Shown one piece after another: positions 16,948 to 56,400 of a stretch of 64,000 nt of DNA. Position numbers and translations under genes: made by a program. The stretch is taken from the NCBI GenBank assembly GCA_015143295.1, contig CM026573.1:6188434-6252433 (forward strand), read 5' to 3'. Each line of letters begins with the position of its first letter. Within the stretch, counting starts at the first letter, position 1. The notes beneath the pieces are model-generated. The model had not been told where the DNA came from and did not search any database. It saw only the letters and a program-made list of their open reading frames with translations. Source of the stretch: Tetracentron sinense (Eukaryota > Streptophyta > Magnoliopsida > Trochodendrales > Trochodendraceae).

Positions 16948-17454
16948 CTAGAAAGCACGGATAATTCAAATAGGTCCTCGTACCCGTATCGAATACGTAT
17001 CGAATACAGATACGGCGGGATACAGCTTAGACGTATCTAGTTAATTTAAAAAAGTTTTTTTATTTCAGATACGGCTCCGATATGGCATGGATACGCAGGG
17101 ATATGGACTTTTTTTTTTTTTTTTTGAGACCCGGGGGCGTGACCCTATCTCTTTTGTTTTTGCATGGACATGGTCTTCTTTATATTTTGCTTAGTGGATG
17201 ATAGGATGACTTTCTTTTTTGCTTAGTGGATGATGAGATGACCCTATTTCTTTTGCTTTTGCATGGACATGGTCTTTTTTATACATAAAGAGAACTGAAC
17301 CAGTGGTTATTTTGTAATTATAATACAAAATATAGTATTATTATTTTTATTTTTTAAATTATAGACGTATCATGGTCATACCCGTATCCTTTTTTTTAGG
17401 TTCTGCCATATCGCCGTACCCGTATCGTATCGTACCCGTATCCGTGCTTCCTAG
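16948..17454. mobile_element. hAT-type foldback element, GTATCG motif family, perfect 8-bp TSD
   Basis: Ends CTAGAAAGCACGGATA and TATCCGTGCTTCCTAG are inverted repeats, flanked by a perfect 8-bp duplication ACTAAAAC (16940-16947 and 17455-17462). Both ends carry many GTATCG/CGATAC copies (for example 16985-17040 and 17400-17445). 507 bp, no coding capacity. An 8-bp duplication is diagnostic of the hAT superfamily, so this is a nonautonomous hAT. Confidence 0.85.
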
Positions 17455-20217: not shown

Positions 20218-20508
20218 AAAAAAAAATCGTAAAAAAGGGTTGGATTTTGTACGTGCCTTCCGTCAACTTCCCACAAAGTCGATTTTTACCTTCCGAGAAG
20301 TCAAGGTAAACACAGCCTAACACTGAGTAGGGCTGGGTTGGGTCAGTTCAGTTCGCCATTTTGGTACATTTATAATTGATTTATCTCTCGTTACGCCAAG
20401 GAGTCACTGCAGTTTATAATGTGTAAGTGCAGCAAAAGTTTTCCAAATTCAATTACGTTTTATCTGACTTCCAAAAAAAAAGAAAGTTAAGATTTCATTT
20501 TTTTCAAA

Positions 20509-20725
20509 GGCAAAAGATTAGCCCTGGCTGCTCCAGTTGGGCGCTCGGGCATCTACAAACCAGTGGGCAAGTGGCGATAATTTAGGGGAGAAGTCATTTC
20601 ATTTTCTCCCTAGGATTTTGACTTCTCCCCACTTGATATCTCTCTCCTTTACAAAGCCACATGCCCACTGGTTTGTGGATGCTCGAGCACCCAACTCGGG
20701 CAGCTGCTAGAAATAATCTTTTGCC
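20509..20725. mobile_element. Palindromic MITE with 10-bp TSD, MULE-like
   Basis: Nearly the whole 217-bp element is an inverted repeat: GGCAAAAGATTA...GGGCGCTCGGGCATCTACAA at the left mirrors the right arm that ends TAATCTTTTGCC. It is flanked by an exact 10-bp direct repeat TTTTTTCAAA (20499-20508 and 20726-20735). A 9-10 bp duplication with long terminal inverted repeats fits Mutator-like nonautonomous elements. Partial relatives are at 4757-4955 and 63451-63536. Confidence 0.75.
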
Positions 20726-20968
20726 TTTTTTCAAAATAAATCCCTAAAACTAAGGTTAGATTCATTAATTCTAAGGGTTAGTAATTTTAACTAGAGTTAA
20801 AAGATACACGTCTTGGGCAAAGAGGCTAGGCCCAAGTATAATACTCGGCCCTCAGCTTAGCTCTCTTTCTGATCCTTTTATAAAAGCGTGCTTCAAAAAT
20901 TGGACCATATTCCATAAATTAATTAAAAAACTGGACCGCCAATGGAATTGTAATGGAATCGGTTCATG

Positions 20969-22282: not shown

Positions 22283-23345
22283 TATAAGAGATGTTTTATT
22301 CGATTATCAAGATATTTTTTTAGATTATTGAAACATTTTCTTAGATTTTTCATAGATTATCGAGATTTTTTCTTAGATTATCGAGATGTTTCATATCAAA
22401 TAGACCACATGTTTTCTTAGATTATCAAGAGATGTTTTCTTAGATTATCGAGATATTCTTTTAGATTATCATGATATTTTCTTAGATTATCAAAATATTT
22501 TCTTAGATCATCGAGGCTTTTCATAAATTATTGAGATTGTTTCATAAATTATCAAGATATTTTAATAGATTATGAAGATTATTTTATACATTTATTAGAG
22601 TGAGATCTATGTTTCCCTACATCTATGTCAATCCCTCCTAATAATTTGATCGTCGAGCTTAAATATGTTTGGTAGAAGTTTTTAAGGTTTTAAGTATCCT
22701 AACTTTTTAGGTATCCTGTTACAATAAGTGTTTAAGGGTTTTAAGTATCCTAACATCTCGATAATTTATGAAAAACTTGATAAGCTATGAAAAGTCTTGA
22801 TAATCTAAGAAACAATTTCAATAATCTAATAAAATATCTCAATAATCTAAGAAAATATATCGATAATCTAATAAAACATCTCTTGATAATCTAAGAAAAC
22901 ATCTAGCTAGTCCATTGATATGAAACATCTCAATAATCTAAGAAATAATCTCGATAATCTAAGAAAATATCTTGATAATCTAATAAACAATCTCGATAAA
23001 GGAGTGCTAGTCCCAATCGCATTTACTACAAATTTTTCCACAAACGCAAGATTGGGGCTAACACATGGAGATGTTTTATATATTAACAATAAAAAAAAAA
23101 AATCAAAGAATGTTTGACATTTGTAGCCACCCAGTTGCTTCTTTGAAAGATTTGCGACTGAGTTAGCAAAATCCATCTCGATAATCTATGAAAAGTTTCG
23201 ATAATCTAAGAAAACATCTCTTAATAATCTAAGAAAATATATAGTCCATTTGATATGAAACATCTCGATAATTTAAGAATTTTTTTAGATAATCTAAGAA
23301 AAATCTCGATAATTTAAGAAAAAATCCTTATAATCTAAGTACAGT
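22283..23345. repeat. Large inverted array of about 21-bp units (foldback)
   Basis: The left arm (22283-22575) repeats TTAGATTATCGAGAT-type units about 12 times. The right arm (22757-23341) repeats the complement, ATCTCGATAATCTAAGAAAA, about 20 times. The spacer (22576-22756) holds two copies of AAGTATCCTAAC. A unit-free insert (about 22998-23170) interrupts the right arm. Transcription through it would give a long imperfect hairpin. No terminal duplication recognised. Confidence 0.75.
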
Positions 23346-24360
23346 GCTGATAATCAGTGGAAAAAGTGAAAATTTTATTTTTTAATCGAAATGTTAATTA
23401 CTATTGAAGAATACGACAAGACTGAAAATGGTTTCCCTTTCACAATTGAACACTTCCTTCTTTATTTATGCATGAATAGTGGACAATGGTTGATGAACAG
23501 ATTTTACCATTCTTCTTTTTAGTTACGCATAAACAATAGACAATGGTTAATGAACGGGTTTTTCCATTCTTGATCTTCTCTCATTTTCTTCTTCTCACGT
23601 GTGTGAGCCTACATAAATAAATGTTGAAAATATGAGCTTCTTTAAGGGGGTTTTCAATTCTTGGGGCCCATTTCTATTTATTTTTTTTTTAACCCCCAAT
23701 TTTTTTTTGGGGTGGTGTATGAGTACACCCCAATTTTTTTTGCTTTTTTAGTTTTTCCACATTTAATAGTCGCACCCCAATACTGTTTTGGAGCTTCTTC
23801 AGTTTTCTTCTTGAGAAGATGTTGTTTCTCCCAAGTGAAGAACTGTTTTTACGTAACTATAAAGATCAACATTCTCCATTAGACAACTCAAACCTGCAAA
23901 ATCTACAAAGACCAATTAAAAAAAAAAAAAAACCCAACAAAACCCAGGATTTTCTCTTCAAAATTCAGGCAAAAAAACTTAAGATCTCGAATTCTAGATC
24001 AATCAGAGACAGGATTCTTTTGTATTCTGTTCTTTGTTTCTCTTACTCTACCGAGAGATCCAAATTTTTTTTTTATCCCTTTCTCTTTCTCTATACGTGA
24101 ATCGATATCTCTTTCTAGCGTTAGCAAGAGCTTCACGATGATTTTGAATAATTAAAGATAATGGGAAATGGATTAATATACTGTTCGCATTGAGAGTTCA
24201 TCATAGGTGGCATTTGACGTGCTATTCCAACGAGATTTCTTAGAGGGAGCAGGTCGGCTTAGGAAATCAATTAAAGTTTATTGATTAAAATTTATTGGCA
24301 GTGCCTAATATTCTTATTGGGGTGTAGTTATAAAATTCGTAACAAAATTTCTTTTTGGAG
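23346..24360. other. Intergenic, no gene seen
   Basis: 23440-23560 holds an imperfect direct repeat around GGACAATGGTTGATGAAC. 23640-23780 has long T runs and CCCCAATTTTT phrases. The open frames are low complexity and without a family signature. Confidence 0.5.
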
Positions 24361-25048: not shown

Positions 25049-28000
25049 TTACAAAATTTTTCCAATGGGTCTCAATTCCCTCGGTAAGCAATCGAAATTC
25101 CCAGAGTCTATATCTGATTGTAGCATCGGTATCTTTCCAATCTTCCAAAGGATGCCCTCTGCCAGATGCTCTTTGTTAGGCGTCAACATTACATAATTTG
25201 GATCAGCCCTTTGATAACTACAAGTGAGTAAATCAAAATATATTAGCGGTGGATTGAGTCTCAATCTAAGAACCTCAAAGAGATGTCAACACCAATTAAA
25301 TAGCAAGCACGATTGATGTCAAAAAATTCTCACAACTTCCATTATACGAACCAAATGAATCAAACCAAAATGCATTTTAACCAAATTCTATCTCAATTCT
25401 GGAATTAATTGAGCAAACTGTAAACAAAGCAGATGGAAATGACTCGGGCTAGGGAACTGCGGTAATGGTTAACTTATGGTAAGAAGTAGATGAAGCAAGT
25501 GTGAGAAATATAAGAGAATGAACATGGTGGAATTAAACCTGGCTTGTCTAAGGTCTTCAATACGAACTCCAAATCCAAAGGCCGTCCTTCCAATTGTACG
25601 ATCTCGAACAGCTGCAAAGCAAAAGGAAAATGTGCTTTGTAAACAATTTTGGGTCTTTAGACTGAGTGCCAATTTATATTTGCATGTGTTATAATGGCAA
25701 ACTAAGACTCTCTCTAAGAGTCGATTCGTTTTAACTTTTAAGAACAAATTCTTCAATGAAAAGGGTTTAAACATCATAGACCAGAATATATAATCATAAT
25801 ACCATATGGCAGGATAATCAGATTGAGTTAACTATATTGCGTAGGAGACCTCCGAGGTAGGGCTTGAGGTCTCTCAGACCCTTTGCATCTGCACCTCATG
25901 CAGAGTATAGGTCCAACTGACAGGTTTCCATAGCCCATCTGTCCTACTAGGTATGTATAATCAATTTGACATCCTATTTATCTCGAACACTTTGCTCCAA
26001 TGTATGTGTCTCTCACTTGATTTTACAATTACAGTCCTAACATTAAAGGATAGGAAGAATCTAAGAAGGCTCTAAAGAGACTTTCATCTATATGTATAGT
26101 AGGAGACTGAACCTATCTTAAACTAGTTATATATGCAACATATTTTGACTGAACCTAAACTAGTTATATATGCAACATATTTAGTGACCCTTTTAGTAAT
26201 CTAACAGTCATAATTAGGGTAGAGAATCACATTTTATATCCAAACAATGGAAAGGGCCTTCAAGTCATGAACCAAAATACCAACTAGATCATATACCTGA
26301 AACGCTGAATGTGAAGGAAGGTTTCCACCATGACTTGAATGCCAGAGCTATAGAAGAGCTGAAAGGACCCACCTTTCCCTGCAAAATAATGTAAATAAAA
26401 AACAGTAAATATGATCCACCATTCCCAACCAGAGGAATCTGTCAAAGATGGTACCTTCAACAAGAAATTTTTATTGGCTTGCCAAGATGCAGCTACTTGA
26501 AAATTGGTTTCTTGGGCACTATTTGCTGATTCAGCCCCATCAATCCTTCAGAACAAAATCAAAGTGAACTAAACTTCCATGGTTTGTTGCATTGATTTTC
26601 AATTAAATAATCAGTTCACTTAATATACCTTGTCTCTAACTGAAATCCAAAGTCAATATAGTTCGTAATTCCAACAATTTCATTTTCTTCAAATGGATTC
26701 TTCACCTGTTTGGTTGAATCAATCATGGGCTTTATTATGATTTAAAAAAATCATGGGCTTTATAAAATTCGATCCACTAACCAGGTTAGAAAGGTTGAGC
26801 ACGAGTAGGACAAAAGCATCAACAATCTCAAATTACAATAGACTAAATGGACAGAAGGCAGTGCATGCACCACAAAATAAGTGAAATATTCAGTAACAAG
26901 TGCTTTCTCTTCAAAACATAGTAACAAAGTCCCGAATAATACGTGATTTTTTCACTGAAGGATTAATTCTCGGACTATTCACGATTTTTTAACTTTTTCA
27001 AAAAGTCGCGAATTTCACGAATTATTCATGATTTGAAAAAGTTTAGAATAAATATCTAATAGATGAAATATGTTTATTTATAATTTTCATAATTAGTAAT
27101 CTTATTTCTTATTTTTTCATATCTTGCCCGATTGTTTACTTGATTTATTTTCATAAATTCCAAATTTTGCCAATTTTTTTTTTAAATTCCCGGAGGAATA
27201 ATTCTCGAACTCCGACTTGGTAACTATGGTTGGTATCAAGTTACTTCCTCTTTATAGTTATTAAATTTACTTTTATTTATTTATTATTTTTGCTTTTTTT
27301 CCAAAGTTTTCCCAACTTTGCAGAATTTTACCGATTTTATCCGAACTAGACCCCAGCCAAATTATTCCGAATCCGACTTTGTTACTCTGCTACAAAAACC
27401 AGTTCCTTGTCATGGTGTGCACTTTGTTAGTCTTATGTGCATCAAAATCAAAGTCACAGTACAACCTCATGGGTTCATAAAACACGAAACCAAAAAGCAT
27501 TCAAAAGAAACTAATGCATAAGCTTATTTGATCTGACGTGAAAACAGGCTCACAAGCTAGAAAATTTGGAACTTAAGTTATCAAACTCAGACCAAATATA
27601 TAAAACAATTGATGAACACACTAATCACAACTAACTGAAAGCAAATAATGATGATTATGTTTACTTATAAAAAAATTCATTTTTATATTTAGTGACAACA
27701 AAATGGAGGTTTCTACACATAAAACTACGCTGGCCTTGTCAATAAAGCAACTTGGGTCAAAAAGCAGCAAAGCATATATTCTTCTCTTTTGTCATATGCT
27801 TATTTGTGAGGAGCTCAATTTAAGAATTTAGCACAAATAACTGTATGTTATGTGAATCCAGGACCCTTACTATGCCACCGAAGATATTATTTCCATGTGG
27901 AGTACATCAAATTGGTTGATTTTCCAAGGAAGATTGAGTGAAAGTGAAACTTTCTTTTCAATATATTGATATCATAATGAATTGCTTGTGGGTCAAGCTA

Positions 28001-31000
28001 CCTAAAAAAAATATTCAGAACAAATGCATTACCCACTAGATGTTTCTGTAATGTAACTAAACTCTTTACTAAAGGCCATTTTCGACAATGGATATCTTAG
28101 AAAATGTGTATGTCGTTTCTGGTCTTGATCCTGGACTAAAATAATGTGACCAAGAAAGATTCCCACCTACTAAGTTATCCTCCGCTTCTTATAATTGATA
28201 GCTAGTTTAGGAGATCCATGGAGTTCCACATCAGCTCAAAATTCCTACCCCGAGAATTTGGCAACCCAGATTGTTGGGTGGGGATTTCTACAAAAACCAA
28301 CTAGGTCCAACTATTGGGCAGACAAGTTATCCAAAAAAGTATCGGAAGAACTCCTAGATGGTCTACTAAGAATAGGAAATGACACAATTGGAAAGCTTGT
28401 TTGGGAATTAAGTTTCACTTAGTTTGACCTGCATCAGTGGCAATCTACAGTTACCTTGTCCTAGGATGTCTATATTTCAATTTCTGAGACTTTTTCTTTT
28501 TCAAAGATTAAATAATAGAATGCAGCACAATTTTTGTATAGAAAATTGGTTCAATCCAATAAATTCCACCATTTGAGTCATTGATTTCAAGATATTCAAA
28601 AGAAAATAGTGTCAGGGAAGGAATTTCAGTATATATGACCATTAAAAGAAAAGGGCAGAGGAGCATACCCGTCTTTGGACCACAGCATGCTGATAGAATG
28701 AGGCAATCAGCTGCAGTTCGGAGATGCATATGAGAAAGTCAGTAAATAAGTGCATAGTACATAATGAATCAGTATTATCACATCCGACTCAAATTCATGC
28801 ACATGACCATGCCTGGGTGCATGATTGTTAAAGGCATCACCTTAGGCGGTCACCTAGGCAACCAGGCGCTATTTGTTGGGCTCAGGCAACTGCCTGCCTA
28901 GACAATCATTATTAAAAATCTGATATATGTTATATTTTATTGTTTAAGGGTGTAAAAATCATTTTATTTAAAGATGATAATTTAGTCAACAAAAAATCAT
29001 TATTTTATATGATTCTCGTCTCTTTTACCATATAATTGTCAGGGTTTGTATATCCAACAAAAAAAAGTTTGCAGATAGAAGAAAAAAAAAAACGAGACTG
29101 TATGATGTCAAGTATGTTTACTCATGCTAACATGCCCTCTCTCTCACTCAATGGGTGGATCAATTGGTCACTCTCTCTCATCTGTTTGTGGGTGAACCAT
29201 ATACTCCGTAGAGTCAAAACTTTGTGTCTTGATGTTTGTGCAAATTGAATGAAAAATCTTGAATTTTGTGCCAAAACTTCTCATTTAATGTTAACTAGTG
29301 TTTAACATGGTTATAGGTGTTGTATGTTCAATGGGTAAGGTTCTAAGGGTAGGATTTGCATGTCTTCAAGAGGGTTTTATGTTGATAATTGTGAATGGAA
29401 TAAGGGATATGGGAATTGATATGTTACTAATTTTATAATGATAAATTGAAGATTATATTGATGATTGATGCATGGTGTTATGCTGATTTTTCTGGAAATT
29501 CATGCATATATGATTGAGATTGAATGAAGGGATGATTTCCGGGGTTTTGTATGTGATTGAAATTGGAGGAAGGGATCTATGTTGAATGATGAAAAAATCT
29601 GGAAATTTATGATTACTATTGTGATTCTATTCCATGTATAATAAAGTATTATTCGATGATCTCACATGTAAATTATATGAAATTATGTATGTATTGTTAG
29701 TTAAATTTCGGATAGGCAAATACTTAGAGAATGATATTAACGACCCCGAATTCTCTAACCATCGTTGTGTGGGCTGCTTTGGTGGAGTTTCAATGGTTTG
29801 ATATCGGAATCTAAGGGATAACCTAAAAGAAGGTTGACCATAACACTCAAACACATGTCTCACTGCCATGGTTCAAAATATCGGTATCGGTTGCCGTATC
29901 GGTAAGTCCAAAATAGAATACGTATCGGCGTATCGGTATCGTATCGGTTGGATACGGCGTAAAAATTCAGGATACGCTAAAAAAAGCTTGGATATGCAAG
30001 GAAAAACTTAGATACCTTGCATAAAACCACTTTTAATGCAAATATAAGTTAAAAACAAACTAAATGAAGGCCCCAACTACATTTATAGTCATACATATGA
30101 GAGTTAAAACATTTATAAGTTAAAAAAGGCGTGTGCGCTAATAGTCTGATAAATATGTATGAAAATACAAACCATAATTACTTAACCAAGTGATAGAAGC
30201 TCACTTGCATTCATAAATCAAAAGTATGAAAATATATAGACATTTGCTCACAAATCTAACCTTGGTTTTTAGAAATAAATATAAAAAAAATTAACAATAG
30301 TTAAAAATTGTTAACCTTAGGGTGTGATTAATAGTCACTACAAGGGACACATGTCTAACTCTAATATTTGTTTTTTAGAAATAAATATAAAAAAAATTAA
30401 CTAGAGTTAAAAAATCCTAATATCAGGGTGTGATTAATAGTCACTACAAGGGACACTTGTCTAACTCTAATATTGGTTTTTAAAAATAAATATAAAAAAA
30501 ATTAACTAGAGTTAAAAATTCTTAACCTCAGGGTGTGATTAATAGTCACTAAAAGGGATACTTGCCTAACTCTAATATTAGTTTTTAAAAATAAATATAA
30601 AAAAAATTAACTAGAGTTAAAAATTCTTAACTTAGGGTGTGATTAATAGTCACTACAAAGGACACATGTCTAACTCTAATATTTGTTTTTTTTAAATGAA
30701 TATAAAAAAAATTAACTAGAGTAAAAAAAATTTAACCTTAGGGTGTGATTAATAGTCACTAAAAGGGACACATGTCTAACTCTAATATTGGTTTTTTAAA
30801 ATAAATATAAAAAAATTAACTAGAGTTAAAAATTCTTAACCTTAGGGTGTGATTAATAGTCACTAAAAGGGACACATGTCTAACTCTAATATTGGTTTTT
30901 AAAAATTAATATAAAAAAAATTAACTAGAGTGAAAAATTATTTACCTTAGGGTGTGATTAATAGTCACTAAAAGGGACACATGTCTAATATTGGTTTTTA

Positions 31001-34000
31001 GAAATAAATATAAAAAACTAGAATTAAAAATATTTAACCTTAGGGTTATTTTTTTTAAAGATCACACCCTAAGTATTAGTGTATCTTAATCACAGAGTTA
31101 AAATGCCTTATTTAAATCATGATTGGCTTGATTCAATCTCATTTTGGTGAAAGGTTAACACCATACATACATTAATCTAAAAAAAAAAACACACAACACA
31201 ACACATTTGATGTGCAGAGTGAGTTTAGCAAATAACACATATGATGTGCAGAGTGATTTTAGCAAACAACACCTATGATGTGCAGAGTGAGTTTAGCATA
31301 TGCCCTCTACATTCATTTAATAAAACAGAATCTTACGCATTCAAGAGTCTTCAATAGTTTGAGATTTTGTTTGGCTGAAAGGGGCAAAGCGGCTAGCACT
31401 TCTCTTCGGTTTCTTTAAGCGATGGCCATGGAGAATGCGATGACGGCAAGGGCGATGATCACCGGTGGAGGCACAGGTATGTACCCTAGTATCCTCCTCC
31501 TTCTCTAATCTCTACCCTAACCCCGTACGACAGTACCCACAATCTGATTTTTTTTCTCCTTTTTTTTTTTTCTTTCTCTACTTCTCAATCTCATTCTCCT
31601 AATCTCCTCTTGGAATTTTTCAGTACTTATAGAGATTAGAGAACCTATCTTTTTTTATGGTTCTCTACAATCTGCAACTTTTTTTTTTTTTGTCGAAACC
31701 CCCGTATCGCACAATATCGAGCGTATCGGTACCGATACGGTCGATATGATTACGATACTAGGAATTTTTTTTTTCACCCGTATCTTCATATCGGGTATGT
31801 GAAAAACTGGTACGTATCAGCCCGTATCGGCCAATACATATCGATATTTGAACCATGCTCACCGCATGATAGGCATTATAAGCACAAGAACCCCATGTTA
31901 CATGTCATTGGAGAGCTACCATGTTACATGTCATTGAGGAGATATCATTTTACATGCATTGCCTATTATCATGCTACATGCGCTGTCAAAATCTCTAACA
32001 TGAATTGATATATACGATTACATGACTTACATGAACATGCACAAGTTTTACATGTCTACACAAGTCACGAGTCTCAACATGCCATGAATGAATTATGCTA
32101 TGTTTACATGTTTCCGCACCATGAATTGTAAGATATGTTTATTTATGATACAACATGACCATGATTACATGATATAATATTGTTAGCTAGACTTTATATA
32201 CACTGAGCGTTGTCAATGCTCAGCCGAATTATTATTGTCGACAGGTTCAAGAGGATTCAACATTTGCACCCCAAGACCTTGGATTGAGGAGGAATATCCA
32301 GAGGAACTGGAAGGAGAAAATCAGGATAGGGAGATTGACTTGGATCACTGTCCGTATTATTGATCCAGTGACTAGCTAGTTTTTATTTTAGTTTTGAGAG
32401 AGATGTAATAAGATAATTTAAAGATGATGTTGCTTAGGTTTAATTTTGAAATTGAGATCATATAGGTGATCAGATTACTTCTGTTAGTTGGTCAACAGTT
32501 TAAAGGAGTTATATTATTGATTATGGAATTGCTATTGTTATCAATTTATGAGAAAATTTTGAGACTCACATTTTAGTATGCTTTTTATGTGTTAAGCTAA
32601 TATGGATATGCAGTGTCACATGTCCAAGGCCTCATTGACCAACAGGGGATTTTGGGACGTGACATGATCTCTCTCTGCTTTTTGTATAGTGTTAAAGGCA
32701 ATCACCTAGGTGACCAAGCGCACAATTGGACTTGGACAACCTAATAACAGAAAAAGGCCTTTAAATGCCCCAAAATTTCTCTAGGGCACCCAAAACTCTC
32801 ATAAACCCCTCCTTATGGTATCTTTTATAATTTAAATAAGTTTAAGCTTTATAATTATATACATTTCTGATTTCACTTGGTGAATGGTTTTTATTATTTT
32901 TCTCAGGCAAATAAGAAGATGGAAGAAAAAACAAAAGGAGAAGAGGTATTGCCTATCTCTCTCTCTCCCCTGGTTCGGCAATCACAGTTGACTGTTAGGC
33001 TTTTTTTTAAATGTTTTTTATTCAGTCTCACTCTCCCCTCCCCCTCCCCTTCTCTCTCTCTTGCTTGACTTTCATTGTAGACTTATTTTTTCCTATTTTT
33101 ATCCCCCAGCCCCTCTCTCCCTCCTTTCGACGATCATTGTAAACTATTTTTTATTATTATTCCCAACACTTGAAATCTTCTTTTACTATTCCTAAAACTA
33201 TCTCCAAGGATGGTTGTATCAAAGTGCATCTTGACAATGAAGATTTTGCAATTTAAGCAAATTGCAGAGCCCCTTGTTCAGAGAAATGCAACATATACAT
33301 GCATCATATACAGATCTAATAATATGGGGGCATTTTCTAAAAAGATAAAAAAAAATCCACCATTTCGAAAATATCTTGCAAAGTTTCCTATTTTCAAACA
33401 GTGATAATTTCCAAAAAATCGATATTTTAAAACCATGTGTGTGTATCGTGTGCACGTGTTGTATGCATGTATTAGTGCCTGTATTACCATAATTTTACAT
33501 ATAATGTAGTTTACTCAACTTTCAAAAAATGCACTGGACATAAAACTGATTAACAGAACTAGGAGCCATCTTTAAAACTGTACCTACCTAATGTGATAGA
33601 TAAATTTAGCACTAAATGTGAAGCTATTGACCAAAGAAGGTTGCGGTGGATTGTTGCTTTTTTGGCCATAGTGTATTGTTGCACAAGTTAATCAATGGAG
33701 AACCAATTATCATCATTAGTGCCTTATCCCATTCACCAACTATTTGGGGTTATCAACATGAATCGTGTTCTGCATTCCATTCTATCAAAAGCTATAAAGT
33801 CAATCGAAGTGTATGCTATCAAATCTTTCCTCACTATCTCCACCCAATTCATTTTTTGCCTTCCTATCGACCTTTTAGAGCATTCAACTTGCACAAACTC
33901 ACTAAATGTCCTAATTTCCCAAATTGAAGGGAGTGCATGTTCATGGGCAACACATAAGATTACCATTTTTTTTGTTTTTTTGTTTCTTTTTCTATAAATA

Positions 34001-37000
34001 CACAAACAGTTTGTTTGGGTGTATGTGTATTAATCAATGTTACCTGGTTCGTCGGTTCACTCGATTCAAATCGTCATTCGTAATTCGCCACTCTAGAGTG
34101 AACCCGGTTCGCCAGGGCTAGGATGAGACAGTTCATTTTTCGGTTCGCTTAGGTTCTTTAGTTTGGTTCGCTAGCTTGGTTTGCTTATATAATATTAATA
34201 TATTATATATATAAATATATTAATCGTGTAAAAAATATATTACAAATACTTATTTTAAAAAAAATTAAAAAATAGGTTTTATGGCCGGTTCGCGAACCTA
34301 GAAAACAAATTCGCCAAACTCAAAGTATAAGTTCGCCGAACTTAAAGAACAAATTCGCCGAACCCAAACAAAAAGTTCGCCAAACCAAAGCTATTGGGTT
34401 CAGGTAACGGGTTCGCTCATTTTCACGAACCTAAACGAACCGAACCGCAAACTGGTTCTCTTCGAACCAGTTCGCAGTTCCTACTTTGGTACTAGTAGGT
34501 AGCGAACTAGGTAACACTGGTATAAATACACAAACAGTTAGAAACTATATACAACTCCTTCAATGAATTGCCTATAAATAAAAGAAGATATCCTTCAACT
34601 TACGAACCCATGGTTTTCCAACTACATTTTATTATTTTTCTAAAAAGAAGAAAGATATCAATAGAATAAGAAATCATGAAAGTTAGTATGGACCAAACCT
34701 GGGAACTTTTAGCAAGTTCAAGACCAAAATTGAATGATGGGCTCAAAGGGCTGTTTGACCCTAACCCATACCCTATTGCACAGCTCCAATTCACTAAATT
34801 GTAAAAGCTTGCACTGTCTTTGCTTCCAACTAATGAAAAATAGAGTCAACAAAAAAAGCAACAAATCAAGATTTAGTCATTTGACAGCAAGTTTCAACTA
34901 TATATATATATATAAATAATGCATGTCACTTTAAATGCACCATTGTGCTTATACTATGTAACCTAGAGAACAAGTTAAGTAAAACATTCTAAGAGAAAGA
35001 AAAGCCTTTGAGAGAACAAAAGGAGAAGTCAAGTATGATTCCCAAGTCCCAAATAAACATAGAAACCAACAGCAAGAAAGCTCATCATATGCATGAGTGG
35101 TCAAGTATGACTGAAACTTTTGTTCCTCAATAGATACCTTTCCTTTGCTTCTTGCATTGACATGTAACATAGCAACAAAGGTTTTCATTTGCCTTAAGCA
35201 TATGGATGTCTTGAACAAGCTATTGTTTGAGTGAATTTGTACAATATGTTGGCCAAGATATTCCAAGTATAGATGTTACAAATCCAAATGCCTACAAAGC
35301 AGTAGGTTCACTTGCCATGTCTTAAATGTTACCTACAAGGATTCAATGAATTAACATGGTTTATAATATCAACATGAATCAGTCCGATATGTATCGTTTT
35401 TCAAGGTACCAATAACTATGGACAAAGTATTATATTTATTCATGTGTATCAAGCATATCGTGTGTATCAACACTGATAAGCACGGTACGGTGCAATACAG
35501 ACTCAATACATGACAAATCATAAGCGAAACATGAATTTTTTTCCCGGTATCAATTGATGTTGGTGTATCGCAAATCGCAACAATCTCGGTCGATATTGTT
35601 ATGATACACAACAGTATCAATCAATGCGTTGCAAAAACTTGTGAATCAAAGGGTTCTGAATTTATTTATTTATTTATTATTATTTTTTTTGGGGGGGGGG
35701 GGGGTCAAACATACTAACAAAAACAAAGTTGGAGTTCGGGAATAATTTGGCGGGGGTCTAGTTCAGAAAAAATCATCAAAATTCGGCAAAGTTGGGAAAA
35801 AAACGGAAACAATACAAAAATATTAATATTAATAAAGAGAAAATAACATGATACCAACCATAATTACCAAGTCATAGTTTGAGAATTATTCGTTTAAGAA
35901 TATTTTTTTTTAAAAGGCAAAATTAAAAAATAAATCAATTAAAATTGGGCAAGATATGAAAAAAATATTAAATAAGATTACTAATTATGAAAATTATAAA
36001 CAAACATAGTTCATATATTAGATATTTATTTGGGATTGTTTTAAAAAGGCGTGAATCATTCAAGAATTAATCGTTTGACGAAAAAGTCTTGTATTATTCA
36101 AGACTTTTGAAAAAATTGGAGAAATTTGTTACTATGTTCTCAAACACACTCAAACCACAAAGAAACCTTCCCAAAGTCATTTCTAGGCCATATATTATTT
36201 CAACAACTCTGCTAATGATTTTTTTTCAAAATAACATTCAATCTCCTCCCCATTCTCAAAATAAAAAAAATTACTAAAATTTGAAGGTATTTCACTTTTA
36301 ATTTCTTTTATTCATTAAAGGCTAAATTGCTAATACCTTATGCAAATCACTCCCAATGGAGTTTAGTAACTAGTTAGTGAGTAGATCTGTAGATTTTATG
36401 CGAAATCCATGAACGTAAAACAATTTATTTTGTAGTCACCCTATTGGAATAAAGAAAAAGAAAAGATCAATAATTTTTCATGCGATTTTTGGGAAAATCT
36501 AAAAGTGGTCATTTTTAAAAAATATATATAAAACTGAAATTAAGGATTAGGAGCGGTAGGATTAACATATGGCTTTAGGCTATGATCTATCAATTTTTAT
36601 TTTATAAAAGCAATTGAAAATTAGAACTATTTCCTTTTAAACTCTTATTAGTTACATTTTTATATAAAATTTTTTTGTAAATTATTCAATGGATCCTCTA
36701 CCACATTTATTGACTAATCATGACTTCAGCAATGTTTAATTATATTTAAAATTAATTTTTCAATTTTAGTTTTAAAAATGTATTTTCATTATTAGTATTA
36801 GTGTAAGCTATGTTTTGTTAAACTATCTTGTTTTGCTTCACTATATGTTGCACATCTTATTAATACTTTTATCTCATTGGAACATATTTGATTATAGTCT
36901 AGTCATCGAGATGCCATTAAAGAAGACAAAAGAGCGCCATTAAAGAAGACAAAAGAGCGAGTCTAAAACATCGGGGGTAGTACGGGAACCCATAAGAACT

Positions 37001-40000
37001 GATTATGGACTAGCTACAAATTTTGTGGTTTTGAGTTTAGAGGTGGTGGGAATTAGGATAACCCTCCTCAACTGCATTTAACTGGCGGGTTCATTAATGT
37101 TCACATTTACCTAAAGTGTCCACGAGAGATTAACCATGACATGAGGATGGACTTGAAAGACAAGAAGGCAGAGAAGCAGCGTGTGAAGAAAGCATAGAAG
37201 CAGCATGTGGCATTGAAGAAAGGTGGATCTGGGGAGGGGGTTAGTATTGATGGTAGCATGGCTGATAGTGGGTATGGTGATGATGATGGCAGACCCCTCT
37301 TTATAGGAACAGATGGACACAGCTAGGCGAAGCTCCAGGTTAGAAGCATAGGAGAGGGAGATGCAGAGATTCCACGCCAGTCGCCAGCATGCATGGTCTT
37401 GGGAGTTCAAAGCATGAGGTTGGGAATTCTAACAGCAGGAGAGGTGGGTTGCAGGACAAGCAAAGCATCAAAGATACATTTGACAGATCTATAACTAGCA
37501 TAGGAGCATGCTGAAGTCAACGATAATGAAAAGTGGTACGAGCATTGTGAATATGGGTCCACACATATACAAGGAGAAGGGATCCAAAAAGAAGAGGCTG
37601 AAAGAGATGTTGTCAAAAGGAAATGTCAGGAAAATGGCAAGGACGCCATTGGGACTTCATATCCAACCACATCCCAGCCAACGATGTGACATCCCTCCTA
37701 TTACCAATGCATGATTGATTGATCGGGCGTAAAGGGACCAACTTCCTATGAGATCACAATGCCAATGCTTGATGTAGAGATAGCTGAGATTTGCACGTAC
37801 ATCAGGTCCTTTAAGAAGAACTGAGAGACATATGGCGTGACCCTTATGTGTGATGGCTAAATTGGACCAACGAAGTTGTCTCTAATCAACTTTCTCGTCT
37901 ATGGCGATGGTTAGACTGTTTTTCACAAATCAATTGATGCATCTACCTTTATAAGGATCATGTGTGTTTGTATCAACTGATGTATCATGTGTGTAGGTTG
38001 TCACGGACAACCATGCTTCATTCAAGAAAATTTGGGAGCTATTAATGACAAAGAGAAATCACCTACAATAGACACCATGTGCGTCTCAATGCATCAATTT
38101 GATGCTAAAAGATTTTGGGGATAAGTAGACAGTGAAGAATATGGTTGAACAAGCCCAAAAATTGACGAGCTACAATATAACCACAACTGGGTATTGAGCC
38201 TGATGAGGGAGCACACGACTGTTGAGCTATTATGACTGGGCATCACCCTCTTTGCCACCAACTTCATCACCGTATAGAGCATTCTCTCCCAAAATCCAGG
38301 GCTGAGGATGCCCACTTCAGACAGGTGGCATGAGTACCCACACAACCATACCACTAAAGCAAAGGGAGTAGAGGATATAATTTTTTAGTAATCGGTATGT
38401 ATGACAGTTGACCTGAGATCCTCAAGGATGTTGTGAAGGTCCTAAAGATGGTTTATGGGAACAAGTGGGCAACAAACGGGATATACATATGAGGTAATGA
38501 GGTGGATGAAGCTAGCTATCCGGGCCGTTATACCAAATTCCTAAAGAGCTACTGCAAGAATGTCGATACACAGTGGGACAAGCAACTCCTACATGAGGGA
38601 GTATCAAGCTTCGTGATGTAGGACATCTAACCAATACTCCCAAAAGCTGCGACTAGTAGGAGCGAAAGATTACATTCATTTTATCTCATAGCTCAGATCC
38701 AAGCTCTCGGCCGTACCCACCTCGTGGGCCATGTTACAACGGCCACCCCACTCCGAGTGTGCCCCCACTTCACACAGGCCGGCCCACTCGAGCCCGGTGT
38801 GACAATTCTCCTCCATTAATCACCCCCGGTGAGGAGTTTCAAACACGAGACCTCCCACTCTGATACCACTTTGATGTAGGACATCTAATCAATACTCCCA
38901 AAAGCCGTGACTAGTAGGAGCGGTGATTAAATTTCTTTGATCTCATAGCCCAGATCCATGCTCTCGGCCAAATCCCCCTTGTGGGCAATGTTACATAGGC
39001 CACCCCACACCGAGTGTGCCCCCACTTCACGCAGGCTGCTCCACTCGAGCTCGGTGTGACAATGCTCCTGCATTACTTGGTACCACAATTATTACTACAA
39101 CCATGTTTTCCACAACTACAATGTACAATTGGGAGCGTATAATGAGCCTAATGAATTCGAGCCAACATGAAATAGTATAAATTACTATTAATGTATTTCA
39201 TTACATACAATGTTTCCAATGCTAAGTAGTGTTTGTAATTGCTTAAAAATGATTATGACGTGTTTTCATACTCATCTATCAGCCTGCTCACTCTTTTATG
39301 ACATATAATGTTATTAAATATTATATGCATGATTATAAATGTAGTTGTAAGACTTTACTTAGTGTGCTTTTAACCAGTGTTACAAATCTCGTTCTCGGGT
39401 TTTTATCGACCGCAATTTTTCTCGGGAAATTTTCAAACCTGAAATTGTTCAGGTATTTCTCGCCTAAATCTCGGCAATGATTAAAAAAATATATTAAATT
39501 ACATAAAATAGTAATTAATATCACAAATTTATAAATTCATAAACCCAACAACATTGGGTATTTATCACGATATTTTAAAACTAAATCTCGCAGTATTTAC
39601 TAAATAAAGAGAAAATTATATTTCTCGCGCGATTTTTAAAATATCACGATAAAAACAGAGTTTTAAAATTTCGATGTTTTTCTCGGGGGAAATTGGGTAT
39701 TTCTTGAGAGATTTGTAAGAATGCTTTTAACTTATCTTAGCATTAAAAGCAGTCTGTGTAAAGTATACTAGTGTTTCCTAGCGACTAGCGTATGAGTTTA
39801 TTAGTGTATCCTAAAGTTTTACCCACGTATCCAAACATATTCTCCATACGTACCTATTTTGGATTGACCAATACGTGACGTCGATACTCAATACCAATAC
39901 TTTAAAACATGGGAATTGACACCTAGAAATATTGACTATCCCCAAACCAGATGCCTCTCAAGTATATATTCAAATGCGTGTTCTAGAAAAATTTGGGACA

Positions 40001-53427: not shown

Positions 53428-56400
53428 CTAGGCTTTTAAAGAAGTGGACTTACGAACAGCGATACACCTTGGGATGCATCGCAGAAAAGTCTGTTGTTGG
53501 GAAGGTTTGTAGGAAGAGAAAAATGTTGGATCCTGTTCAAGGGACTCTGTATAACATTCAAGAGTTGAGACAATCTCTTCAAAGTGTGGCCGTTTATCTG
53601 GGTTACTTGACCAGCATCGACTGATGAGATGACTGAACGCCATCGGGCAAGAGGCGGGCAACGGTGGTCTTTCATTCTGCATTAACACAACTCATATAAG
53701 AAACAATTAATTTATGAAGTTTGCCTCTTATGGAGAAATATTTTCAGAGAAATATGACTTGGTTCATCTCCATTCACATCAATCAGATTAGCTTGGCTCC
53801 AGAGGACTACTTTTGTAAAGCCTTGGTTTCAAGGACTTTTTTTTCTTTTTCTTTTTGTGTCTATTTCCTTATGGAGGCCAACACAAAATGGGGGCAAAGT
53901 AAGCCAAGCAATGCAATTTTACAATTTTCATAACTAATCCAAAATTAATTAGCACTTTCAAGTAATTCTTCATACACAGTAGAAACAGACATAGAAACCC
54001 GGTCACCTTGAGATAGAACAAATTTCTAGTCAGTAATCTAAACTAGAGGAACATTTTCTATAAATATTATCAGTTGGTTAGGCAAATTTTAATTTTCAAC
54101 AACAATGACTAGATGAATCGTGTTTTTGATATTCTGTTGGAGTTGGTGTCGGACTGTCCTAGGCATATGATGACTAAAGCTAACATACTCTTAAGTAATT
54201 CTAGACCTTAGAAATGAGCTCACCACATAAAACAGTAATTTTATCATCTTTGAACACGTGTTTACAAAAGCTCTGGTCATGATGAATAGTAAAATGGAAT
54301 CTGAAACTGTAGCAGATACAGAGTTCCTAGTTCGATAGGCAGCTAATGTGGATTGTGTCTACTTTCAAGAGTTTCTTCAGGTGAAAATCTCTTTGCAACT
54401 GTTCACACAAGACTGGAAACCGGATTAAGGAGGGAAAAAGAAGCACAAAGGATGTTAAAATGTTAGATGTTACCATTGTAATTGAGTTAAGAACTAGAAC
54501 ATGCTGGAAGGTTCTCTTCTGATTAGTCAAGAAAAGAGAAACTATAAGTCCGGTTTATAATGTCAATACTTCATATGCACAACATATATTAGTATATGCC
54601 AAATATGATTTATAGATATGTCCAGTCTATTAGGTTCCGATCTTTTGGTAGAACTTTTAAAGTCCGGAACATTGATATTTTAGACCAACAGGCAAGAGTA
54701 TGGGAGGAGAGGGGAGAGTTTCTAACTCTTTCACACAATGGTATCTCAGATTTATCAGGTTCAATCTAATTAGAAGTTCCACATGTATTAAAAAATCCGA
54801 AATTTTTGTTGGAACTTGAAAGTTCCATATTTGGAGAACTTTTGCACTCTATGGAATAATATAGTTCTAGACATTAAGTAAAATTAGGCATGAAACAATG
54901 AAATTTCTAGACTTTAAAAGCTCCACCGAAAGAACAGGGCCTTAGAGATAGTTTAGAGAATCTCTAATATTCAGCATAACAAAAGACTCTACCTACATGG
55001 AACAGAAAGGATGCTATAAAATAACAGGGATGGAAGAAAAATATCAAAATCTTCATTACCAATCAAAAAAAACATATCAAAATCTTAATAACCTCTTTTA
55101 TAGCCTCCTATTTCTACAAGATTCTGAACGTACAAAATATCTTCGTTAACCCAACATCCTAAACAACTCTTGTTAGAAGGTAGATTCTCTTCAAAATTAG
55201 GAGTTTGTCAACTTGCTTTGTACATAGGGGATGACCTACTTTCAATATAATCTTACATTGCTGAATACAAAAAACTCATCTGTTGAAAATTAAGAACCTT
55301 CGATTTCTTTTTCAAATAACCCATTTAAATCAATTTATAAAGTATCATACTCCAATTAGAGAAATGGATAATGACATTGCTAGTACTAAATGCATCTGCG
55401 CACCTGTGTCATGCTTGGGCATGTCTGATTGATTGAACTGCCTGTGTTATTGTAATCTGCAATATTGACTGTGGACCTGTGATTTTGGCCGCTTGTAGAC
55501 TTGTAGTTGCATCACTTGATTGAAGATTTATCTGATAGAGCTACTTATTTTCTTGCCTTCTGTTGCACTTCCCAGCAATATAGGGAATCATGATCCTTGT
55601 ACATCCAGAATTGGATATGTAGAAGGCATACCACTGATGACTGTATTAGAGATAGTTTAGAGAATACTGAGTGGTGTAATTAGGTGAGATGAGATACACT
55701 ATCTCATCTCATAGGTAGATTTGAATTTGAAAAAGATTAGGATTTATTGTTTTGATTTGATTGCTGTTTATTGACAGTCTTTAATGTATCATGGCTGAGT
55801 AGTAGAGGAACTAACTCAAAGTATGGAGGGTTTGGAGGTTTAAGCATTGTGGTAACAAATGCTTCATAACCTGATCCAAGACCTTTGAGTAAACCAAACA
55901 CTTTTTGGCGGTCGTGTACAGGCTTGCCGATGGAAGATAAGTCATCACAGATGCTCTTGAACACACGCACGTACTTGGGCATGGTAGATGAGGCCTTATA
56001 AATGAGCTGTAGTGAAGGCAGAATTCTCTCTCCTGTGACCCTCGTGCAAAGTGATTGAGAAGGGCATTCCATACATCGGAAGAGGTTTCAAGTCCAATAG
56101 CCATGTGGCCTTATCACATGCAATCAAACCAATGAATCCTAATCTTTTTCAAATTCAAATCTACCTATGAGATGAGATAGAGTGTATCTCATCTTACCTT
56201 ATTACACCACTCAGTATTCTCTAAACTATCTCTAACAGTGAATACCTTGTGTAATTCAAACTTCCAGATATTCATTCCCATGCTTTTGATTTATTGGTGG
56301 ACATCAACAAGAAGTTACTGATTTTTCAGATTATATGTTTCTACAGCTGGTAGGGCTTGAACTGTTTTCAATCAAAATTAGGCAAAAACAGTGCCAAACT

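Follow-up and report, generated by a model that had tools for sequence, protein, structure and literature searches.

A nonautonomous hAT element of Tetracentron sinense that carries a tandem array lies near a degraded relative with DUF659 sequence, and is probably Ds2-like

We analyzed a 64,000-nucleotide stretch of the Tetracentron sinense genome (assembly GCA_015143295.1, contig CM026573.1, positions 6,188,434 to 6,252,433 of the forward strand; hereafter the window, in whose numbering all positions are given), focusing on a transposon-like element at 29867-31857 with a tandem array inside it. Pieces of two genes, one with a MYB domain and one for a protein kinase, were recognized in the window (4 of the 10 scanned frames gave matches), and neither Rfam at gathering scores nor ARAGORN returned a match anywhere in the window. 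A larger element of 4.6 kb, 35355-39911, lies 3.5 kb from the first in the opposite orientation and has similar ends. We refer to it as the relative.

A preliminary description had proposed that inverted ends and a 7-of-8 match between 8-bp flanks mark the 29867-31857 interval as a nonautonomous hAT element, and its boundaries bear this out. The 11-bp inverted ends are perfect (11/11), and exact copies of CATGGTTCAAA occur in the window only at 29867 and, as the reverse complement, ending at 31857. The flanks CTCACTGC and CTCACCGC differ at a single position, where T stands against the C of a CpG, a mismatch that fits decay of a duplication; we read the imperfect flanks of both the element (7/8) and the relative (6/8) as decayed 8-bp duplications. 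The element is one of three cases in the 64 kb in which a perfect inverted pair of 11-mers, 200-5000 bp apart, has flanks agreeing at 7/8 positions or better. Short motifs of the CGTATCGG type are concentrated just inside its ends: allowing up to one mismatch, the window holds 27 matches against 8.8 expected, a number reached in 0 of 100 shuffles, and 11 of the 27 fall at 29883-29947 and 31703-31830. None of the six frames of the element gave any Pfam match up to E 1, so no transposase was detected in it. Its flanks matched nothing else in the window at E 1e-4.

The relative, which like the 34-bp repeats at 31198-31298 is absent from the preliminary description, was recovered by sensitive self-comparison and is presumably a copy of a once-autonomous type. 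Two stretches of DUF659 (PF04937), a domain that takes in hAT transposases and occurs mostly in green plants (PMC3985635), were identified in two of its three forward frames, at 37738-37953 (E 8.3e-12) and 37991-38161 (E 1.4e-12). Both are above the Pfam cut-off, and their coordinates are derived from residue numbers. Between 37000 and 38620 the three frames contain 22, 35 and 40 stops, so the transposase gene is broken. The Pfam scan of the forward frames of 35355-39911 did not report the C-terminal dimerisation domain of hAT transposases, the three minus frames of 36900-39911 had no Pfam match up to E 1, and NCBIfam gave none up to E 0.01 on the two DUF659 frames. A DUF3120 match from the plus-strand scan (E 0.15) was below the cut-off and was set aside.

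Other repeats lie within the relative. One member of an inverted repeat pair (27047-27383 and 35722-36030; 342 columns, 77%) sits inside it. An unrelated repeat in two direct copies (38614-39075; 205 columns, 86%) lies between its broken transposase region and its 3' end. A 349-bp element is nested at 39375-39723; its ends read CA(G/T)T(G/C)TTACAAATCTC, and its 8-bp duplication, CTTTTAAC, is perfect.

Comparison of the element with the relative ties both pairs of ends together. The first 371 bp of the element match the 3' end of the relative at 68% over 203 columns and 69% over 196 (with the two sequences compared directly, E 1e-18 and 2e-17), a score reached by 0 of 1000 dinucleotide shuffles. 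At the other end, the last 154 bp match the relative's 5' end (35355-35498) at 60% over 156 columns (E 8e-5 in the same kind of comparison; again 0 of 1000 shuffles), and the match taken over 60 bp or 170 bp also beats the best of 500 shuffles. Order and orientation agree throughout. The element is thus inverted with respect to the relative, and the family's 5' end is found at its right; on the same comparison, the left terminal inverted repeat is assigned to the family's 3' end.

These alignments support the nonautonomous hAT assignment of the preliminary description and make it firmer, adding a relative that bears DUF659 and has like ends to the 8-bp duplications, the short inverted ends and the subterminal motifs. 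An element of another superfamily that makes 8-bp duplications could in principle produce such boundaries, and the terminus CATGGTTCAAA is indeed unlike the Ac/Ds end, C/TAGGGATGAAA (PMC3260210). However, the DUF659-bearing relative has both ends in common with the element, including terminal sequence beyond the motif repeats, and we consider an origin outside hAT hardly plausible. Among the papers listed as containing the string CATGGTTCAAA, none had a transposon title.

The array lies in the element's interior. Tandem Repeats Finder (TRF) delimits it at 30255-31017 with a period of 105, 7.3 copies and 89% matches, and cutting at a shared anchor gives units of 105, 106, 105, 104, 106, 104 and 99 bp followed by a partial eighth. 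The seven units counted in the preliminary description are thus confirmed; its label of a "young" satellite is generous, since pairwise identity among the units is 84-96%, a divergence of 4-16%. That divergence also bears on whether the array could be a collapsed or expanded misassembly with little relation to the real locus. Arrays of this size can be misjudged by assemblies, but units this different make the array as such an unlikely artefact, and we regard this explanation as very improbable, while allowing that the copy number may be off. The array is present once within the window. A 20-mer of its unit had 0 exact matches in prokaryote and viral contigs, collections that are uninformative for plants. 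Multiplication of transposase-binding motifs has been put forward as an idea for the arrays of Galileo and Tetris (PMC4079207); it is not supported for this array, which contains no CpG and a single GTATC counting either strand.

A candidate source for the array lies in the relative itself. Outside the element, the best match to the 105-bp unit is an A+T-rich stretch at 36635-36778, which ranks first among 1228 overlapping tile-strands. A doubled consensus unit scores 39 against it, a value reached in 15 of 5000 shuffles (1 of 300 in a smaller run); no tile elsewhere in the window exceeds 32. The match is on the expected strand and is ordered between the two end blocks, and against the opposite strand of the relative the unit scores 24, which 172 of 300 shuffles reach. 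Because this stretch is placed before the DUF659 region, it may be a noncoding leader. From the match, we consider it probable, though not proven, that the array arose from DNA that the family itself carries on the upstream side of the transposase. The array starts at 30255, within ~20 bp of position 30237 where the 3' block match ends. This placement suits an origin at a deletion junction, with the proviso that alignment edges are soft at such divergence. A short piece at the array's left edge (30190-30260) scores no better against the relative than shuffled sequence (506 of 1000 as high).

Beyond the array, the interior of the element does not resemble the relative. For the blocks 31047-31197, 31198-31345, 31346-31480 and 31477-31702, 643, 997, 907 and 290 of 1000 shuffles, respectively, score as high against it. 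We compared the observed scores (20, 14, 12 and 21) with those of simulated copies of 65% identity, for which the 5% points are 28, 26, 27 and 44 (the last block being taken as 31481-31702 in the simulation); ~95% or more of the simulated copies outscore the observed values. Together, the block scores and simulations indicate that ~650 bp of interior are not common to this copy of the relative, by gain in the element or loss in the relative. The element thus has 371 + 154 bp of termini in common with the relative around 31047-31702, in which 4 of 4 blocks are unmatched, as in a Ds2-type element; the comparison is with one degraded copy, not an intact parent.

One of the unmatched blocks is exon-like. 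The ATG, 18 codons and donor recorded in the preliminary description are present as described, with the ATG at 31422 and CAG/GTATGT at 31476/31477. When the element is shuffled with its dinucleotides preserved, a strict feature of this kind (an ATG, at least 15 open codons and MAG/GTRWGT) turns up in 18 of 1000 shuffles, and the window holds three on both strands; with a looser donor, the numbers rise to 122 of 1000 shuffles and 17 cases in the window. The acceptor-like TTTTTCAG at 31623 is among 9 AGs listed as candidates; if the predicted intron ended there, the open frame would total 77 codons and run into the element's right end. We regard the piece, which is weakly above chance, as suggestive only: a lead, not a gene. 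The block is not shared with this copy of the relative, and the piece may be captured or a product of chance.

We weighed both of these possibilities. That the piece arose by chance in a G+C-richer patch, leaving the hAT element and the array as the real features, is a contender that we place slightly short of even. The piece was chosen after the fact, it exceeds shuffled sequence weakly, the looser donor makes comparable cases common, and the six-frame Pfam scan of the element was null. Set against this, the patch is outstanding in both G+C and CpG, and a pyrimidine-rich stretch with an acceptor-like CAG keeps the frame open.

The composition of the patch is also what could point to a Pack-type element that captured a host gene's leader, first exon and first-intron start, with the array as a captured host minisatellite. 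The bin 31367-31466 has 53% G+C and 7 CpG, whereas G+C in the bins spanning 29967-31366 is 21-35%; the ATG, open codons and strict donor coincide in few shuffles; the relative offers no counterpart of the block; and hAT elements that captured gene sequence have been described (PMC3260210, PMC8903248). However, 18 codons give no testable coding signal, the window holds two other strict features of like sort, the array has a candidate source within the family itself, and searches of prokaryotic and viral collections showed no donor gene. We consider a Pack-type origin of both parts possible but unlikely.

Two further searches concern the origin of the piece. An exact 20-mer for the gene-capture test had 0 matches in viral contigs, and exact-pattern searches of prokaryotic and viral collections yielded no plant sequence; a 20-mer match in a Saprospiraceae metagenome-assembled genome was rejected since it does not extend (the flanks agree at 6/30 and 13/40 positions). 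The idea that the piece is the transposase's own first exon is not supported either: by the alignment, the family's gene runs on the minus strand here, the piece is on the plus strand and points outward, and it has no match in the relative.

Table 1. Features of the hAT element and of its larger relative, in window coordinates
Feature	Coordinates	Strand	Basis
Left copy of the 8-bp target site duplication, CTCACTGC	29859..29866	.	7/8 against 31858-31865
Left terminal inverted repeat, CATGGTTCAAA	29867..29877	+	Exact inverted match to 31847-31857; aligns to 39911 on the minus strand
Left terminal block in common with the relative (minus strand of 39911 to 39191, where the nested short element breaks it up)	29867..30237	+	Two-sequence comparison
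Left subterminal cluster of CGTATCGG-type motifs	29883..29947	+	5 of the 27 window matches, up to one mismatch
Tandem array of seven ~105-bp units and a partial eighth, A+T-rich	30255..31047	+	TRF, anchor-based splitting
Three 34-bp direct repeats	31198..31298	+	91% matches
G+C-richer block: leader-like sequence, ATG (31422), 18 open codons, donor-like CAG/GTATGT	31346..31480	+	Composition, motif search; predicted intron start 31477
Possible intron, acceptor-like TTTTTCAG ending at 31623	31477..31623	+	Prediction only
Right terminal block with 6 subterminal CGTATCGG-type motifs, assigned to the family's 5' end	31703..31857	-	Alignment to 35355-35498
Right terminal inverted repeat	31847..31857	-	Exact inverted match to the left end
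Right copy of the target site duplication, CTCACCGC	31858..31865	.	7/8 against 29859-29866
Degraded larger hAT relative, CATGGTTTATA ... TTTAAAACATG, flanks TGAATTAA / GGAATTGA (6/8)	35355..39911	+	Sensitive self-comparison, outward reading
Relative's A+T-rich stretch upstream of the DUF659 region, where the 105-bp unit scores highest outside the element	36635..36778	-	65% over 138 columns at 36649-36778
Relative's broken transposase region, two DUF659 stretches in two reading frames	37738..38161	+	Pfam

Taken together, we favor the view that the element probably belongs to a DUF659-type family of plant hATs, as a nonautonomous, Ds2-like derivative with parental termini around other DNA and an array grown from DNA of the family. 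It retains ~370 bp of the family's 3' end, ~155 bp of the 5' end, subterminal motif repeats and an 8-bp duplication, and would have moved by cut and paste, using transposase that an intact member of the family elsewhere provided in trans. The interior could have formed by aborted repair of an excision gap, in which the transposase gene was dropped and filler left behind. The 105-bp array most likely would have grown in place, by slippage during repair and then unequal exchange, the putative template being noncoding DNA of the family from the upstream side of the transposase. The exon-like block, with its leader and donor, would be filler absent from the relative; it may be a captured first exon, a reading that draws on composition and motif. 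Joined into one account, these steps would make the array a newborn satellite that arose where a Ds2-like hAT suffered its deletion: the transposase was lost when gap repair aborted, slippage on the upstream DNA made the array, and hAT transposition could disperse it together with a captured first exon and donor. We regard this full account as rather improbable.

Several observations weigh against the Ds2-like interpretation. The match at the right end is weak by itself, with E 0.007 in a whole-window search, and its first 100 bp score 12.0 where the best of 500 shuffles scores 12.5. The right end in the opposite orientation scores 24 (30 in the correct one; shuffle mean 15.4); we put this down to the shared motif, on which the match therefore partly rests. 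Our power simulation covered identities of 65% and 70%, both above the right end's 60%, and the blocks absent from the relative could have been lost there, not gained in the element. At 65% in A+T-rich DNA, the match of the array is modest, and for one natural pair of units the score against the relative is 35, which 19 of 1000 shuffles equal or exceed. The comparison also depends on a relative that is a single, heavily rearranged copy: DUF659 alone was detected of its transposase, its 5' part contains the repeat also found at 27047-27383, and it has two further inserts. Finally, the element itself is represented by one copy, the window containing one diverged relative.

If the array did grow from family DNA at the junction left by transposase loss, the making of a nonautonomous hAT element and the birth of a tandem repeat would be linked in one object. 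Otherwise, the locus presents a well-preserved nonautonomous plant hAT near a degraded relative of a type that could once have supplied its transposase.

The window contains several other repeats. A short hAT-type element at 16948-17454 has CTAG(A/G)AAGCACGGATA ends, a perfect 8-bp duplication (ACTAAAAC) and CGTATCG-like motifs, and a third short element, at 34035-34519, has CA(A/G)TGTTACCT ends, flanks agreeing at 7/8 positions and repeated TTCGCC inside. The perfect inverted 11-mer AGGCAAAAGAT at 20508-20726, with 8/8 flanks TTTTTCAA, is possibly another short element. Several repeat blocks of ~21 bp (AGATATTTTATTAGATTATC...) occupy 22289-23364 in both orientations (e.g., 22304-22561 against 22999-22752 at 80%). 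An inverted repeat (55646-55757 and 56122-56235; 114 columns, 95%) lies near the protein kinase exons.

Among characterized systems, the closest parallel is maize Ds2 of the Ac/Ds group of hAT elements, in which ~0.5 kb of Ac termini surround unrelated DNA (PMC3260210). Like Ds2, the element is nonautonomous, with 11-bp inverted ends, an 8-bp duplication and termini around other internal DNA; unlike Ds2, it has a different end sequence and its family is of the DUF659 type (PMC3260210). Gene fragments are reported in 2 Ds2 and 9 Ds-l4 elements of maize, and the words "tandem" and "satellite" are absent from the main text of that paper (PMC3260210). Pack-hATs have also been reported, more commonly in maize than in rice, and one maize hAT insertion provides a splice donor to a gene (PMC8903248). 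The element resembles Pack-TYPE hATs in having hAT ends and 8-bp duplications around non-transposon DNA; those elements were judged against host genes (PMC8903248), whereas the exon-like piece described here is known from the sequence of the element alone.

For the array, we found no plant hAT with an internal satellite array, and no plant hAT combining an array with an exon-like piece, in the titles and abstract openings among the matches listed; passages of PMC6337768, PMC2820488, PMC2872659 and PMC7385995 likewise describe no plant hAT with an array. Parallels come from other transposons. Tetris of Drosophila virilis is, like the element, a nonautonomous DNA transposon with internal tandem repeats, whose origin is ascribed to the transposon's own sequence and whose variation is ascribed to unequal exchange; it differs in being a foldback element whose repeats lie inside long inverted ends and are reported to seed kb-sized satellite arrays, whereas the array described here is central and known from one copy (PMC4079207). 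Xenopus miDNA4 and Xstir and rye D1100 similarly have a monomer or short array that lies inside, or derives from, a nonautonomous element, and the miDNA4 satellite sits between A+T-rich sequences (PMC9659126, PMC12628747). Unlike the hAT element, miDNA4 is a Tc1/mariner miniature inverted-repeat transposable element (MITE) and Xstir apparently a piggyBac-type MITE, and many copies were studied (PMC9659126, PMC12628747). Both the capture of genes by hATs and the presence of arrays within transposons are thus already known in print, the latter, with satellites grown from such arrays, from Drosophila, Xenopus and oyster, together with a rye satellite traced to a MITE (PMC4079207, PMC9659126, PMC12628747).

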